Assembly: GCA_003671275.1 (NCBI GenBank)
Contig: QWPB01000027.1
Coordinates: 1 to 45,667 of the forward strand
From: Planctomycetota bacterium
Lineage (GTDB): Bacteria > Planctomycetota > Planctomycetia > Planctomycetales > Planctomycetaceae
DNA length: 45,667 nt
Reading direction: 5' to 3'
Shown here piece after piece: positions 5,052 to 11,853 of the stretch. Position numbers and translations under genes: made by a program. Every line of letters starts with the position of its first letter. Positions within the stretch are counted from its first letter, which is position 1. The notes beneath the pieces were generated by a model that made no database searches, was not told where the DNA came from, and saw only the letters and a list, made by a program, of their open reading frames with translations.

Positions 5052-5173
5052 TGATCGCCGTGAGCCATCGGGTGTCTCGCCATGGGTGTCCCATGGGTGC
5101 TGGCGGGAAGTCTTGCCTCACCGAGCGGGCCGGTCTCAAAGTACGGCCCGTCGCTTACTTGCCCGGCTCCGTG

Positions 5174-5248
5174 TTTGCTCGATCACAGTTTGCTCGATCA
5201 CAGTTTGCTCGATCACAGTTTGCTCGATCACAGTTTGCTCGATCACAT
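5174..5248. repeat. Five-copy 15-bp tandem repeat
   Basis: Five head-to-tail copies of TTTGCTCGATCACAG (5174-5188, 5189-5203, 5204-5218, 5219-5233, 5234-5248). They are perfect except for the last base of the final copy. The array lies between two convergent genes, and its last unit overlaps the stop codon (5243-5245) of the minus-strand phosphatase. Because 15 is a multiple of 3, copy-number change would keep frame. Possible roles are a replication-slippage tract or a protein-binding array; nothing shows which. Confidence 0.95.
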
Positions 5249-7183
5249 TCGAATCGTCCGGGTTCCGACCGCTGATGATTCTCCAGCCGCTTGTCCCGTC
5301 AACATGATCTGATCAGGCTGGTCGGGACCGAGCTTGATCGTATAGAGACCAGCCGCGTAAACGCAGGGTTGAAATGGGGTTTCCCGAGGACGGACCGTGT
5401 AAAGAATCTCACCGGTTGATTCGGCGATGATCTGAACCACCGGAGGTCTTGCCCCCGCGAAATGGAGTTCCGGTAGCCAGTGCGTCGCCTGGCGTCCGTC
5501 GTTCGCTGATTGCGTCACCGTGATCGGCCAACCGGGGAACTGAGATTGGTCGCCTTGTGAGCTGTCGCTGAACCGTGGCCAGCACTCGAATTTGATTTCC
5601 CGTGTCGAGCGGTTGAACCGCACCAGGCCATACCCATCGGCCCGCTGCTTCTCGTCCTGAATCTTCGGTGGATTGGCATAGGCCAGCATTGAGATGCGGT
5701 TGCCCAGCCCATCTCGGAAGTCGCCGGTCCAGGGGAGCGGGCTGTCCTTCACCGGGTGAGGTCCGGGCTGTTCGTCGAGCGGGTGCCACCAGCGGCCATA
5801 GATCGTGTTGACGAGGGCGGGGCTGGTGAACCCGTAGGGGCCATCGCCAAACTCATCGATCCCGTGTTTCACCACGACGGCCAGGTGCTGGTCACCGCAC
5901 AGGTGTACGGCCCGAGCCCGGCGGATCTCGACCAGTGCCTGGTTCCGTCCGGACTGTGGCCAGCCATTGCAGTCCAGGTCGGCCAGCAAGCGATCGTTCT
6001 CACCACCATGCATGTGGACCGCTCCGCAGAATGCGGTTTGCGACAGCACAGCTTTCATTTCAACGCCGGTCCAGTCCTGGCCCCAGTCGTGCAGGAACGT
6101 GATCTGTCGCTCGCCCAGCAACTGCAAACCAGGCAGGTCAATCGACTGGGGATCGTAGCTCGGGTCGTTGATGTGGTCGGGACGGGGCCCCAGCTGCGGG
6201 ATTTTCCCCAGCGGGCCCGATTTGAACTTGCGATCTTCGAGGATGGCGAAGTCGATGCCGCCGACTCGCATGCGGGTGAAGTAGACCGTGATTCCGCGTT
6301 CGACCGGTGTGGGGTCCACCGGGTCGGGCAGGTGCCAGGTCTGTTGCCGCTGCACCATGTTGACGTACTCGGCGGGGTAGAAATACCCGCCGTCCGCGTT
6401 CCCTTTGCGATCTGTGGACCGCTTGCCGTTCTCCCCCCACAGGTTCGGATGCCCGACATCGTGGTCATCCGGAATCGTGATTGTGGGGCGGTCTTTGAGC
6501 ACCTCGCGAAACTGCAGCCCGAACTCGATCCACCCCGCCGTGTGCTCAGTATGGCGGTAGGTCTGATCGCCCGCGAAGAACAGCAGGTCGGGGTCTTGTC
6601 GCTTGAGGTTCTCGATGATCTCGGGACGCAGACCAGTCGTGCGACTGGAGTTGCATGACATGTTGGCGATGACGATCTCATCCTTGTCGAGTGGATCGCG
6701 GCGGATCAGCCCCTCGAAAAGAGCGGTCTCGCCGTGCCGCACGCGATAGGGCATAGACTGTGTGGAATCCCATTCGCTGACCCGGAAGTGAGCACTCCAC
6801 CCCGGCAGGGAGACCGCGACGCGGGACACTTCTTCCCACTCTCCATTGCGTTCCAGTTCCAGTCGGACCATGCGGTCCTCGTCTGGCCTCAGCGGGTAGA
6901 GTTGAGCGGTGATCTTCAGCACCCCGCGTTCCTGTGTGTAAAGGGCAAACGCCACAACCTCATGGCGTGGGACATCCATCGGCGGCGGCGGGTTTGGTCC
7001 CTTCGGCTGAGGACGCTTCCACCAGTCACCGGTGGCGAGTGAATCGAGGTTTGGGAATTCCGGGCCAAAGTCCGGCACCCCCGCTGCGGGTACGGCCTGG
7101 ACTTGTGCGGAGACCGGTGGAGTCGGAGATCCACCGAGCAGCAACGAAGTAAATTTCAACCACCAGCGACGCGTGAGGCTCAT
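5243..7183 (-). CDS. PhoD-like phosphatase (alkaline phosphatase D family), Tat-exported
   Basis: A 646-residue predicted metallophosphoesterase. The N-terminus has a twin-arginine-like motif (LTRRWWLK) before a hydrophobic stretch and VSA cleavage-like site, as in Tat-exported PhoD enzymes. The PhoD-like catalytic core includes FAGDQTYRH (metal-binding D), IPDDHDVGH and LCGDQHLA, and it has an N-terminal beta-rich domain. The family hydrolyses phosphate mono- or diesters outside the cytoplasm. The ATG at 7183 has GGAG eight bases upstream and begins the signal peptide; the frame is open to 7204. The 3' end overlaps the 15-bp tandem repeat. It is divergent from the EVE-domain gene, and no phosphate-regulon gene is adjacent. 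Confidence 0.88.
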   Translation of the reverse strand: MSLTRRWWLKFTSLLLGGSPTPPVSAQVQAVPAAGVPDFGPEFPNLDSLATGDWWKRPQPKGPNPPPPMDVPRHEVVAFALYTQERGVLKITAQLYPLRPDEDRMVRLELERNGEWEEVSRVAVSLPGWSAHFRVSEWDSTQSMPYRVRHGETALFEGLIRRDPLDKDEIVIANMSCNSSRTTGLRPEIIENLKRQDPDLLFFAGDQTYRHTEHTAGWIEFGLQFREVLKDRPTITIPDDHDVGHPNLWGENGKRSTDRKGNADGGYFYPAEYVNMVQRQQTWHLPDPVDPTPVERGITVYFTRMRVGGIDFAILEDRKFKSGPLGKIPQLGPRPDHINDPSYDPQSIDLPGLQLLGERQITFLHDWGQDWTGVEMKAVLSQTAFCGAVHMHGGENDRLLADLDCNGWPQSGRNQALVEIRRARAVHLCGDQHLAVVVKHGIDEFGDGPYGFTSPALVNTIYGRWWHPLDEQPGPHPVKDSPLPWTGDFRDGLGNRISMLAYANPPKIQDEKQRADGYGLVRFNRSTREIKFECWPRFSDSSQGDQSQFPGWPITVTQSANDGRQATHWLPELHFAGARPPVVQIIAESTGEILYTVRPRETPFQPCVYAAGLYTIKLGPDQPDQIMLTGQAAGESSAVGTRTIRM

Positions 7184-7379
7184 CCAATCGACTCCGAATT
7201 CCATTCAGCGGTCCACGAATTGTCAGACGGTAACGATAATTGTCATCGCAACCAATCGCGACCATCGTTTTGTGGAGGGATCTGTCACCCCACGTCAGTG
7301 AGACACCGTGTCCGTAAGGAGGCTGTTCGCGAGAGGGAGAGCGGCATGATTCTGGATTCACGGACATCGGTCACAGGTC

Positions 7380-8067: not shown

Positions 8068-11000
8068 ATGAGTGATCGCCCGTTTGCCCATCTGCACTGC
8101 CATACCCATTACTCGCTGCTCGACGGAGCCAGCAAGATTCCGGACTTGATCAAGAAGGTCAAGGAACTGGGGATGAACTCGTGCGCGATCACGGATCACG
8201 GGAATCTGTATGGGGCGCTGGAGTTCTATACCAAGGCCAAGGACGCCGGGGTCAACCCGATTCTGGGGTACGAGGCGTACATCGCTCCGGGGGCGCGGAC
8301 TGATCGGACCGCAGCCCGGATGAAGGATGCTTCGTTTCATCTGACCTTGCTGGCGATGAATCGACAGGGGTTTCAAAACCTGGTGAAGCTTTCGTCGAAG
8401 GCGTTCCTGGAAGGATACTACTACCGACCGCGGATCGATAAGGAGATCCTCGCCCAGCACCACGAGGGGATTATTTGTTTGTCGGGGTGTGCTTCGAGCG
8501 AACTCTCGCGACTGCTCTTGGCGGAGGAAAAAGAGAAAGCCGAGAGCTTGGTCCACTGGTTTTCGAATCTGTTTGGCGACCGGTTCTATCTCGAAATCCA
8601 GGACGGCGGGGTCGAGATTCAGCAGTCGTGTGCCGAGGCCACGATCGATCTCGCCAACCGGATGGGATTCCCGCTCGTGGCGACCAACGATGCGCATTAT
8701 CTCTGCCAGACCGATTCGGCGATGCATGATGTGCTGCTGTGCGTGAACACGAAGTCGCAGCGCAGCGATGAGAAACGGATGAAGATTGACACCGATCAAC
8801 TCTTCATTCGGTCGCCGGAGCAGATGTACGCTGCCTTTCCGAAGCAGGCGGAAGCGGTGGCCCGGTCGCAGGAGATTGCGAATCGGGTCGACATCAATCT
8901 GGATCTGAAGACACGGCACTTTCCGGTCTTCGCCCCGCCGCCAGGGAAGACTGATATTCAGCACCTCAAAGAGGTGGCTCTGGAAGGACTGAAGTGGCGG
9001 TACGGCGCTGAGCCGGAGCAGAAGTACCATGACCGGCTGAACTTCGAGTTGGGTGTGATCGAGAAGATGGGATTCGCCAGTTACTTCTTGATCGTGTGGG
9101 ATTTTGCTCGGTTTGCCCGCGACAAGGGAATCCCGTGTTCCGCGAGAGGGTCGGCCTGCGGAGCCATCGTGGCCTTCGTCCTCGGCCTCTCCGATGTTTG
9201 CCCGATCAAGTACGACTTGTTGTTCGAACGATTCCTCGACCCGAACCGGACCGAAGCGCCCGATATCGATATCGACTTCTGCCAGGAACGCCGCGAACTG
9301 GTGATCCAGTACGTGAAGGAGAAGTACGGGTACGCCAACGTGGCCCAGATCGGGACGTTCGGCACCTTGAAGGCAAAGGCGGCGATCCGCGATGTGTGCC
9401 GGGCGCTGGGGGTGGACCTGAAGCGAGCGGATCAGATTGCCAAGATGGTCCCCGAAGAGCTGAACATCAAGCTCAAGGACGCTATCGAGAAGAGCCCGGA
9501 GCTCAAGGCCGAGTACGAGCGGGATGAGCAGATCAAGGAGGTTCTCGACTTCTCGATGGCCCTCGAAGGGCTCGCCAAAAGCGCGGGCACGCATGCCGCA
9601 GGAGTCGTGATCGCGGACCGCCCACTGGACGAGTATGTCCCGCTGCAGAAGATCACCGGCAAGGATGACATCCTGACGCAGTGGACCGAGGTCGAGAAGG
9701 CCGGTCTGCTCAAGATGGACTTCCTCGGGCTGCGGAACCTGACCATCCTCGACCGCGCGGTGAAGAACGTGAAGCGACATCGCGGTGTCGATATCGTGCC
9801 GAAAGACTTGCCGCTCGATGACAAGCCGACGTTCGCTCTGCTCCAACGCGGCGAATCGAAAGGGATCTTCCAGCTCGAGTCCGGCGGGATGCGGGATCTG
9901 CTGACGAAGATGAAGCCCGACAAGTTCGAGGACATCATCGCCACGTCGGCCCTCTATCGACCGGGGCCGCTGGAAGGGGGCATGGTCACGACCTATGTCG
10001 AGTGCAAAAACGGTCGCCAAGCGGTCGCCAAGATTCATCCTATCGTGGACCCGGTGCTGGCGGAGACCTACGGCGTAATGGTCTACCAGGAACAGGTGAT
10101 GCGGATTCTGAACCGCCTGGGCGGGATCGAACTGGCGAGTTCGTATAAGTGCATTAAGGCGATCTCGAAGAAGAAACTCGATGATATCGCCAAGTACAAG
10201 GGCGAGTTCATCGAAGGAGCCAAGAGCAACGGCATGTCCGAGGAGCAGGCGACGGAGCTGTTTGGCCTGATCGATAAGTTCGCGGGCTACGGGTTTAACA
10301 AAAGTCACTCGACCGCCTACGGAGCGATCGCCTATCAGACGGCGTACCTGAAAGCGCACTACCCTGGCGAGTTCATGGCCGCCCTGCTCTCCTGCGAGAT
10401 GGAGAGCAGCGAGCGGATCGCCGAGCATGCCGATGATGCCCGGCGGATGGGACTCGATCTGCTGCCGCCGAATGTGAATATCAGTGATGTGGAATTTACG
10501 GTGGTGGAGGAAGTGGTCGATGAGAAAGTTACCAAGGGCCAAGGGGCCAGTACCAAGGGGAAGAAGAAGCCGACGGGCCAGAGTCTAGAGCCAAGAGCCA
10601 GAGGGAATGAAGCGGGCACCAATGACCAAGGACTAATGACCAAGGACTCATCCCAGCCCAATGTTGGGCTGACGCTATCCCACTCACCTGATACTTCTTC
10701 CCCTCAACGCCTCTTTCGCAAAATCGCTTTCGGCATGGGAGCCATTCGCGGTGTGGGCGATGCTCCAGTGCGAGCCATTATGGAGGAGCGACAGAAGAAT
10801 GGCCCCTTCAAAGATATCTTCGATCTGACTGAGCGGATTGACCCGAAGGTGCTGCAAAAAGGGTCGCTCGAAATGCTCATCAAAGCCGGGGCGCTCGACA
10901 CCTTTGGCCCCAACCGGGCTCAGCATCTCGCCGCCGTTGATCGCGCGGCCCAGGCCGCGGCCAATAAATTCCGCGACAAGGCCAAGGGCCAGCGCAGCTT

Positions 11001-11853
11001 GTTCGGTGGGCCTCCGAAGGCGGGGGCCGAGCCCCTCGCCGATCTCGATGTGACGCTGCCGCCCCTCGAAGATATGCCGCACAGCCAAAAACTGGCGCTG
11101 GAGAAGGAAGTTCTGGGTTTCTATCTGACGTCACATCCGTTGACTGAGTTTGGCGCCCAACTCGGGGCGTACACCCAGCACCAGATCAAAGACTTGCGAG
11201 ATATGGAAGACGGCAAGGAAGTTTTCCTGGGCGGCATGATTGGAGCCATCAAACCCGCAGCCACCAAGAAACCCAGCCGCAACGGCAACAGCAAATACGT
11301 GAACTTCGATCTGGAAGATTCGACCGGCGTTGTCCGCTGCATCATGTGGCCGGACGACTTTGCCAATCATGGTGAGAAAGTCAAGAAGGAGGCGATCGTC
11401 CTGATTCGCGGACGCATTGATGCCAAAAGCCGCGAGCCCAATATCATCATTAACAAACTGATGACGCTGGAGCAGGCCGAAAAAGAGTTCACGAAGCGGC
11501 TGCTGGTGAAATTCAAACGCGGTTATCACACCGGGGACGAGATGAAGCGCGTTCGCGATGCTCTCTTTCGCTACCCGGGTAAGACGCCCGTTGTGCTGGT
11601 GCTGGAAACGTGGGAGGAGACCGCGAACAGCAACGGCAATGGACCTGATCGCAACGGAGATCCCCACGATCACGCTCACGGGGCGGGGACCGCGACGCGG
11701 ACGCCACTGAAATGTCTACTGACGATGGGAACGACCGTGGCTGCGGGAGCGGATCTCAAGCGAGAGCTGTCGATGTTGCTAGGGAGCGACGGTTTCCGCT
11801 TTGAAGCCGGATCAGCGACCTCAGCGGGTGGCCCTCCACCGGACAACTACTAA
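8068..11853 (+). CDS. dnaE: DNA polymerase III subunit alpha
   Basis: The 1261-residue replicative polymerase catalytic subunit. In order it has a PHP domain (HLHCHTHYSLLDGAS at residue 7), a polymerase palm with PDIDIDF (Asp401/Asp403) and KMDFLGLRNL (Asp551) as the catalytic aspartates, fingers (VYQEQVM, GYGFNKSHSTAYG), a helix-hairpin-helix region, an OB fold (VFLGGMIGAI...YVNFDLED) and a C-terminal tail. It is about 80-100 residues longer than typical DnaE. Much of the excess is an abnormal low-complexity insertion at about residues 815-880 (10510-10710), described separately. The ATG at 8068 begins the conserved region. Reading frame and catalytic residues are intact, so it should be functional. 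The convergent neighbour is the protease/SirB1 gene. Confidence 0.97.
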   Translation: MSDRPFAHLHCHTHYSLLDGASKIPDLIKKVKELGMNSCAITDHGNLYGALEFYTKAKDAGVNPILGYEAYIAPGARTDRTAARMKDASFHLTLLAMNRQGFQNLVKLSSKAFLEGYYYRPRIDKEILAQHHEGIICLSGCASSELSRLLLAEEKEKAESLVHWFSNLFGDRFYLEIQDGGVEIQQSCAEATIDLANRMGFPLVATNDAHYLCQTDSAMHDVLLCVNTKSQRSDEKRMKIDTDQLFIRSPEQMYAAFPKQAEAVARSQEIANRVDINLDLKTRHFPVFAPPPGKTDIQHLKEVALEGLKWRYGAEPEQKYHDRLNFELGVIEKMGFASYFLIVWDFARFARDKGIPCSARGSACGAIVAFVLGLSDVCPIKYDLLFERFLDPNRTEAPDIDIDFCQERRELVIQYVKEKYGYANVAQIGTFGTLKAKAAIRDVCRALGVDLKRADQIAKMVPEELNIKLKDAIEKSPELKAEYERDEQIKEVLDFSMALEGLAKSAGTHAAGVVIADRPLDEYVPLQKITGKDDILTQWTEVEKAGLLKMDFLGLRNLTILDRAVKNVKRHRGVDIVPKDLPLDDKPTFALLQRGESKGIFQLESGGMRDLLTKMKPDKFEDIIATSALYRPGPLEGGMVTTYVECKNGRQAVAKIHPIVDPVLAETYGVMVYQEQVMRILNRLGGIELASSYKCIKAISKKKLDDIAKYKGEFIEGAKSNGMSEEQATELFGLIDKFAGYGFNKSHSTAYGAIAYQTAYLKAHYPGEFMAALLSCEMESSERIAEHADDARRMGLDLLPPNVNISDVEFTVVEEVVDEKVTKGQGASTKGKKKPTGQSLEPRARGNEAGTNDQGLMTKDSSQPNVGLTLSHSPDTSSPQRLFRKIAFGMGAIRGVGDAPVRAIMEERQKNGPFKDIFDLTERIDPKVLQKGSLEMLIKAGALDTFGPNRAQHLAAVDRAAQAAANKFRDKAKGQRSLFGGPPKAGAEPLADLDVTLPPLEDMPHSQKLALEKEVLGFYLTSHPLTEFGAQLGAYTQHQIKDLRDMEDGKEVFLGGMIGAIKPAATKKPSRNGNSKYVNFDLEDSTGVVRCIMWPDDFANHGEKVKKEAIVLIRGRIDAKSREPNIIINKLMTLEQAEKEFTKRLLVKFKRGYHTGDEMKRVRDALFRYPGKTPVVLVLETWEETANSNGNGPDRNGDPHDHAHGAGTATRTPLKCLLTMGTTVAAGADLKRELSMLLGSDGFRFEAGSATSAGGPPPDNY
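10515..10710. repeat. Repeat-like insertion inside dnaE
   Basis: This stretch encodes a roughly 65-residue low-complexity segment between the conserved DnaE motifs NVNISDVEFTVVE and FRKIAFGMGAIRGVGDAPV, which are normally separated by only a short linker. It contains related phrases (ACCAAGGGCCAAGGGGCCAG, GAGCCAAGAGCCAGAG), a perfect tandem 14-bp repeat AATGACCAAGGACT (10621-10634 and 10635-10648) and a palindrome AGCCCAATGTTGGGCT (10655-10670). Composition and structure resemble a dispersed intergenic repeat that entered the gene in frame. Confidence 0.7.

Follow-up and report, generated by a model that had tools for sequence, protein, structure and literature searches.

How an essential replication gene comes to hold a stretch of repeat-like DNA, and what its protein makes of it, is the question raised by the dnaE gene of this planctomycete. 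The window analysed here, 45,667 nucleotides long, corresponds to contig C168 in a draft genome of 5.03 Mb and 198 contigs. The initial annotation had proposed that positions 10515-10710 are a dispersed intergenic repeat that landed in frame in dnaE. Our analysis makes it likely that this segment is one copy of a modular repeat that is dispersed in the genome and composed of a heptamer array and a tail block; the copy now sits in a variable loop and is translated.

The DnaE linker

The dnaE gene occupies positions 8068-11853 of the plus strand and encodes the alpha subunit of DNA polymerase III. Its reading frame stays open through the segment and its protein passes the DnaE equivalog model (NCBIfam PRK05673.1) with 1286 bits against a cut-off of 1002, so the insertion is tolerated, as had been claimed. 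A 450-aa fragment of the protein has a single match in its own genome (G000) at E ≤ 0.001; many relatives have a second, more distant match to the fragment.

The segment (10515-10710, plus strand) codes for most of an 84-residue linker flanked by the DnaE motifs PPNVN...F and KIAFGMGAIRG. We describe it as a repeat-derived in-frame linker segment on the basis of its lag-7 periodicity, the linkers of relatives and a modelled disordered loop. In an alignment to the alpha subunit of PDB 2hpi, from Thermus aquaticus, query residues 816 and 885 both pair with residue 886, and 2hpi has zero extra residues at the linker point. In a structure model of the dnaE region, built on 43 sequences and with a mean pLDDT of 80.6, the segment forms the loop that joins the two strands of a predicted beta hairpin, and most of this loop has a pLDDT below 50. 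The insert is predicted to be a disordered loop, and the repeat DNA is probably translated as a floppy one. The segment does not look like an intein: the whole linker has 84 residues and is disordered in the model, and the NCBIfam matches to DnaE comprise only polymerase models and one weak phosphatase model, with no splicing domain among them.

Composition of the segment

The segment is periodic at 7 and 14 nt, with z-scores of 4.3 at lag 7 and 4.7 at lag 14, neither reached by any of 1000 shuffles; a repeat run gave 4.1 (reached by 1 of 1000 shuffles) and 4.9. The stretches of dnaE flanking it on either side show no 7-nt or 14-nt periodicity signal. The tandem 14-bp repeat noticed initially is AATGACCAAGGACT, present twice at 10621-10648 with a 100% match, and none of 50 dinucleotide-shuffled windows gives a tandem 14-mer. 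It can be described as a degenerate heptamer array, AAKGACY, with four units at 10621-10648 and a preceding ACC (10618-10648, plus strand), read as TNDQGLMTKD. Its tandem degenerate 7-nt units (lag-7 z 4.3, rerun 4.1) place the segment among heptanucleotide (STRR-like) repeat arrays.

Other blocks of the plus strand accompany the array. Before it lies a CCAAGGG-type block (10531-10560), whose part from 10533 to 10560 matches site 1 of uvrA in 27 of 28 bases. The word AGGGAATGAAG (10602-10612) recurs in the leuS insert, a short match (E 0.04) that may be chance. Behind the array are the hairpin AGCCCAA-TG-TTGGGCT (10655-10670) and the tail block GGGGCTNAYGCYRYCCCRCTCRCC (10665-10688, one mismatch), which also follows the array in uvrA site 1 and in an oxidoreductase gene. 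The hairpin had been read as a 16-base palindrome; 14 of its 16 positions are self-complementary, giving 7-bp arms and a 2-nt loop, a form that occurs eight times in the window with this copy included, or 0.03 times per 196 nt. The description of the segment as low in complexity applies only partially, with a G+C content of 0.56 compared to 0.585 for dnaE. The segment folds no better than shuffles (z -0.4 and -1.4), and an Rfam search of 10300-10900 gave no matches at E ≤ 1. An inverted repeat, AGGGGAAGAAG / CTTCTTCCCCT (10556-10566 and 10694-10704), has an arm length reached by none of 200 shuffles. It was not adopted as the ends of the element because both arms lie, by eye, where the congeners have similar sequence.

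Linker length among relatives

Linkers delimited by tblastn anchors were compared in 30 of 36 genomes. The linker has 84 residues in the window, 59 in both genomes of the same genus and 14-38 in the other 27, of which 20 have 14-16. Among the best 80 of at least 586 DnaE loci, taken from named genomes and possibly omitting records very near the window's own genome, 79 linkers could be measured, one locus having no second anchor. In this set, where the left anchor shifts by a few residues between rows, 48 linkers have 14-16 residues and 74 fall within 13-32, with four in-frame linkers of 42-53 residues and one out-of-frame row (L099). The closest of these 80 loci belongs to a Planctomyces sp. 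metagenome genome, at 83% in its best segment. Periodicity and linker length together confirm a repeat-like insertion in frame, and the 2hpi alignment and the relatives' linkers agree that it separates motifs otherwise only a few residues apart; the linker itself is not conserved. As a separate observation, dnaE of the nearest named relative is interrupted in frame by some 450 codons at a GFNK/SHSTAY motif (L031:5227-6585); this insertion resembles an intein by its motifs and is absent from the window's dnaE.

The 59-residue linker of the congeners contains GCCAAGGGCC, and the AAKGACY array is missing from dnaE of both. Since that linker is already 59 residues long, array and tail amount to a net gain of 75 nt in a previously lengthened loop. 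An adaptive role, for example as a partner-binding linker, would fit the location in an essential enzyme and a linker that is long in all three genomes seen of the genus. However, its length and sequence vary within the genus, it is predicted to be disordered and the same material is found in unrelated proteins, so that we regard such a role as very improbable. Most likely the loop has no specific function and is neutrally tolerated.

Copies of the array and tail elsewhere in the genome

Searched with the segment, the own genome gives 25 matches at E ≤ 10, nine of them (self included) below 1e-3. A first array search gave 4 matches compared to 0 for the control. With a 15-base AAKGACY pattern and at most one mismatch there are 46 overlapping matches, compared to 12 for the reversed control, and exact matches lie also on C42, C45, C91, C134, C163, C182 and C191. 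A 20-base pattern gives 30 matches compared to 0 for the control, and 0 in both congeners, whose genomes as searched are 71% and 66% complete. The two words singled out by the initial annotation differ in this respect: the array has copies across the genome, but the palindrome has a single one at up to one mismatch and was rejected as a dispersed repeat. The segment is thus not conserved in all relatives, its array being absent in the congeners, nor is it free of other copies.

We counted periodic arrays in a sample of 444,667 bases, made up of the window and 20 non-random stretches, mostly large contigs. There are 11 lag-7 arrays, compared to 0, 1, 1 and 0 at lags 5, 8, 10 and 11, and five shuffles of the sample give 0-2 lag-7 arrays. 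Lags divisible by three count against this to some degree, with 5, 3, 6 and 8 arrays at lags 6, 9, 12 and 15, as would be expected of coding DNA. The thresholds behind these counts were relaxed after a stricter first scan had given zero lag-7 runs in the sample, and were applied alike to other lags, other genomes and shuffles.

Facing arrays on C163, C42 and C191 fold into long hairpins (z -7.3, -7.7 and -7.6, respectively), and ORF calls place the inverted arrays of C163 and C191 between large ORFs or at their edges. By rough automatic ORF calls, four of nine array entries in fetched stretches are wholly inside ORFs. One of these four, in L255, looks like an ordinary coding repeat, and two others belong to an HrpA-type and a UvrD-type helicase gene, identified by Pfam (L265:2112-2139 and L257:18178-18212); the former has a lag-7 z of 3.5, reached by 1 of 1000 shuffles. 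The term intergenic repeat describes the copies between genes, but not those in frame inside other conserved genes.

The 24-bp tail occurs at six genome sites at up to two mismatches, compared to 0 for the reversed control. Array and then tail, in the same order, are present in dnaE, uvrA site 1 and a molybdopterin oxidoreductase gene, and slippage by itself would not produce such an order. This bears on a local origin, in which heptamers arose in an unconstrained linker and grew by polymerase slippage with nothing copied in. Slippage at heptamers was proposed by Mrazek et al. 2007, according to the introduction of PMC4679880, and the congeners' long linkers, with GCCAAGGGCC, are weakly periodic at lag 7 (z 2.2 and 2.4). 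Slippage makes no shared non-repetitive sequence, however, and the tail block and the 28-nt block, which are common to other genes in the same order, therefore count against a purely local origin. We consider it unlikely and retain the view that a dispersed repeat was copied into dnaE.

In-frame copies in other genes

Besides dnaE, ORFs span arrays in uvrA (two sites), the molybdopterin oxidoreductase gene, leuS and PSD1 (DUF1553). The lag-7 z-scores of these inserts are 4.7 and 6.0 for uvrA, and 3.7, 6.0 and 9.3 for the oxidoreductase, leuS and PSD1, respectively. For the oxidoreductase, the nearest models are nitrate/formate enzymes, all listed ones scoring below cut-off. AAKGACY arrays are in frame in four genes, dnaE, uvrA, the oxidoreductase and PSD1, whereas the inserts at uvrA site 2 and in leuS are made of other heptamers. 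A U32 peptidase gene (L019) was not counted as a further insert site, its match being weak (E 0.47). Repeats of this kind in loops of some repair and protein-synthesis enzymes, as in DnaE, suggest that loops of this sort are tolerated landing sites.

The reading frame stays open through the inserts of dnaE, of uvrA at both sites, and of the oxidoreductase, leuS and PSD1 genes, six in all. At the position where T would make an in-frame TGA, all four coding AAKGACY arrays have G, compared to 12 G and 22 T in the units of six loci taken as non-coding. The G is only suggestive of selection against in-frame stops, because the four coding arrays are possibly of common origin and one array counted as non-coding, with four units that all have T, overlaps an ORF end in the other orientation. 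The open frames also bear on whether the insert could be an artefact of the draft assembly, in which 198 contigs and repeats, a known source of misjoins, would leave room for one. We hold this to be extremely unlikely in view of the six open frames and of arrays in both uvrA loops of a genome assembled as a single contig.

The same loops in other species

That single-contig genome (G003) has 31 lag-7 arrays in 400 kb, compared to 2, 1, 0 and 2 at lags 5, 8, 10 and 11, so that heptamer arrays cannot in general be put down to assembly. The heptamer of its uvrA loops, GGGYTTC, has no dimers in the 400 kb sample. We surveyed the uvrA loops in the best 30 of 41 family genomes, counting a lag-7 signal where no more than 2 of 500 shuffles reached the value. 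With the own genome included, a signal is present in 8 of 25 site 1 loops of at least 45 nt and in 3 of 30 site 2 loops; the remaining 17 and 27, respectively, failed the test. The heptamers differ by eye from genome to genome, and two loops with a lag-7 signal also show one at lag 8 (z 4.3 and 3.2). A few loops have long inverted repeats without a lag-7 signal, for example with 27- and 23-nt arms, and most others have neither.

Earlier comparisons across species, of eight genomes each, gave a similarly mixed picture. Both uvrA loops of G017 contain other heptamers, and its oxidoreductase loop has a 16-nt inverted repeat with z 1.1 at lag 7 and 4.6 at lag 8. The samples of G017 and G006 gave just 2 and 1 lag-7 runs, despite the arrays in the uvrA loops of G017. 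The leuS loop of G002 again has other heptamers, and leuS of G001 has an inverted repeat that resembles the tail block by eye (10-nt arm, reached by 1 of 200 shuffles). In the congeners, uvrA gave no match covering both sides of a loop and the oxidoreductase no close match. As for dnaE, the linker of an Opitutae locus (L087) consists of heptamers in an inverted array, with a lag-7 z of 6.8, a 12-nt arm and a fold z of -6.0, and that of L073 has a different heptamer (lag-7 z 4.9).

A wider reading, which we put forward tentatively and lean slightly against, is that in Planctomycetota, and perhaps the PVC group, fixed surface loops of replication, repair and translation enzymes keep exchanging unrelated, genome-specific repeats, and that inverted heptamer arrays form an unnamed class of non-autonomous mobile DNA. 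If so, DnaE, UvrA and LeuRS would in each species receive that species' own intergenic repeats, always in the same loops. Related genomes have different repeats in the same loops, so uvrA and dnaE might preserve a natural record of the repeats active in a genome. Such records could also show how these repeats are copied, a process that lacks an explanation for bacterial heptanucleotide repeats.

Mechanism and relation to known repeats

For the spread of the copies, we would give about an even chance, against other mechanisms, to copying associated with replication or repair, that is, template switching or slippage at hairpin-capable arrays. A copy would land or grow in a loop and be translated, and purifying selection would retain only insertions that lack a stop, have a length of 3n nucleotides and lie in permissive loops.

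Rickettsia palindromic elements offer the nearest parallel. In the available text of PMC3767692, RPE-4, RPE-6, RPE-7 and extended RPE-4 are in-frame insertions of 68-192 bp (its Table 1), their host genes include those for DNA polymerase III alpha, IleRS, PheRS and UvrC, their positions are solvent-exposed, and one site can hold different RPE groups in different species. The dnaE segment resembles them as an in-frame insertion kept in a conserved gene; its own position is a predicted disordered loop between strands. It appears to differ in that RPEs are palindromic families, whereas we find heptamer arrays with a tail, and the dnaE copy has no strong hairpin. The dnaE case thus works like an RPE though it is built from other material. 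REPs ending in GTAG or CGTC are likewise described in replication and repair genes, including dnaE of R. conorii, and both uvrA genes of O. terrae carry two REP inserts each, according to the sections of PMC3733652 at hand.

Could the segment then belong to a known REP or RPE family that a RAYT-type transposase mobilises? Published REPs in dnaE, uvrA and helicase genes (PMC3733652), the presence of three Y1 transposase-like (Y1_Tnp) matches in the own genome and a minus-strand CGTC adjoining the 16-nt hairpin would agree with this. What defines a REP, however, is a short stem-loop with GTAG or CGTC at its end, for which the same paper gives a stem of 8-9 bp and a loop of 4-5 nt in the CGTC families, whereas the hairpin here is single-copy, has a 7-bp stem and a 2-nt loop, and has no GTAG end. 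The search for a mobilising enzyme was negative, the 3.2-3.3 kb loci of the three Y1_Tnp matches containing no heptamer arrays, and mobilisation by a RAYT is unsupported. We therefore think a known REP or RPE family improbable. The inverted repeats that surround two of the Y1_Tnp matches (L304 and L305) contain GTGCCACTGGCG or GGGTGCCACGGCTCTG, and the word GGGTGCCACTGGCGG is also seen in G014, in its uvrA site 1 loop (L309).

In material, the dispersed repeat proposed here resembles published heptanucleotide repeats, which are dispersed degenerate 7-nt arrays, mostly intergenic with some in ORFs. Examples are TAACTGA of Beggiatoaceae (PMC4679880), and GGGAATC of Xanthomonas and GGGGAYT of Nostoc (PMC4692102); in Nostoc, 68% of the repeats are intergenic. 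TAACTGA is reported in an ORF like RNA polymerase beta', and its ORF copies are mainly at protein ends (PMC4679880), in contrast to the internal array of dnaE. The parts of these two papers that are available describe neither an array-tail composite nor a comparison of one internal loop across species. Among the matches listed from open-licence papers, we found none that reports heptamer arrays within genes of planctomycetes. For RPEs and REPs, in-frame repeats are already known from DnaE, UvrA and tRNA synthetases (PMC3767692 and PMC3733652). What is new is the kind of repeat, a heptamer array with a tail, and the phylum in which it occurs. Insertion of repeats into essential genes, of which Rickettsia and the REPs are the best-known cases, is thereby extended to heptamer arrays and to another phylum.

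Elsewhere in the window, a 15-bp unit, GTTTGCTCGATCACA, is repeated perfectly in tandem, with five copies at 5173-5247, at the 3' end of a minus-strand ORF (5243-7204).
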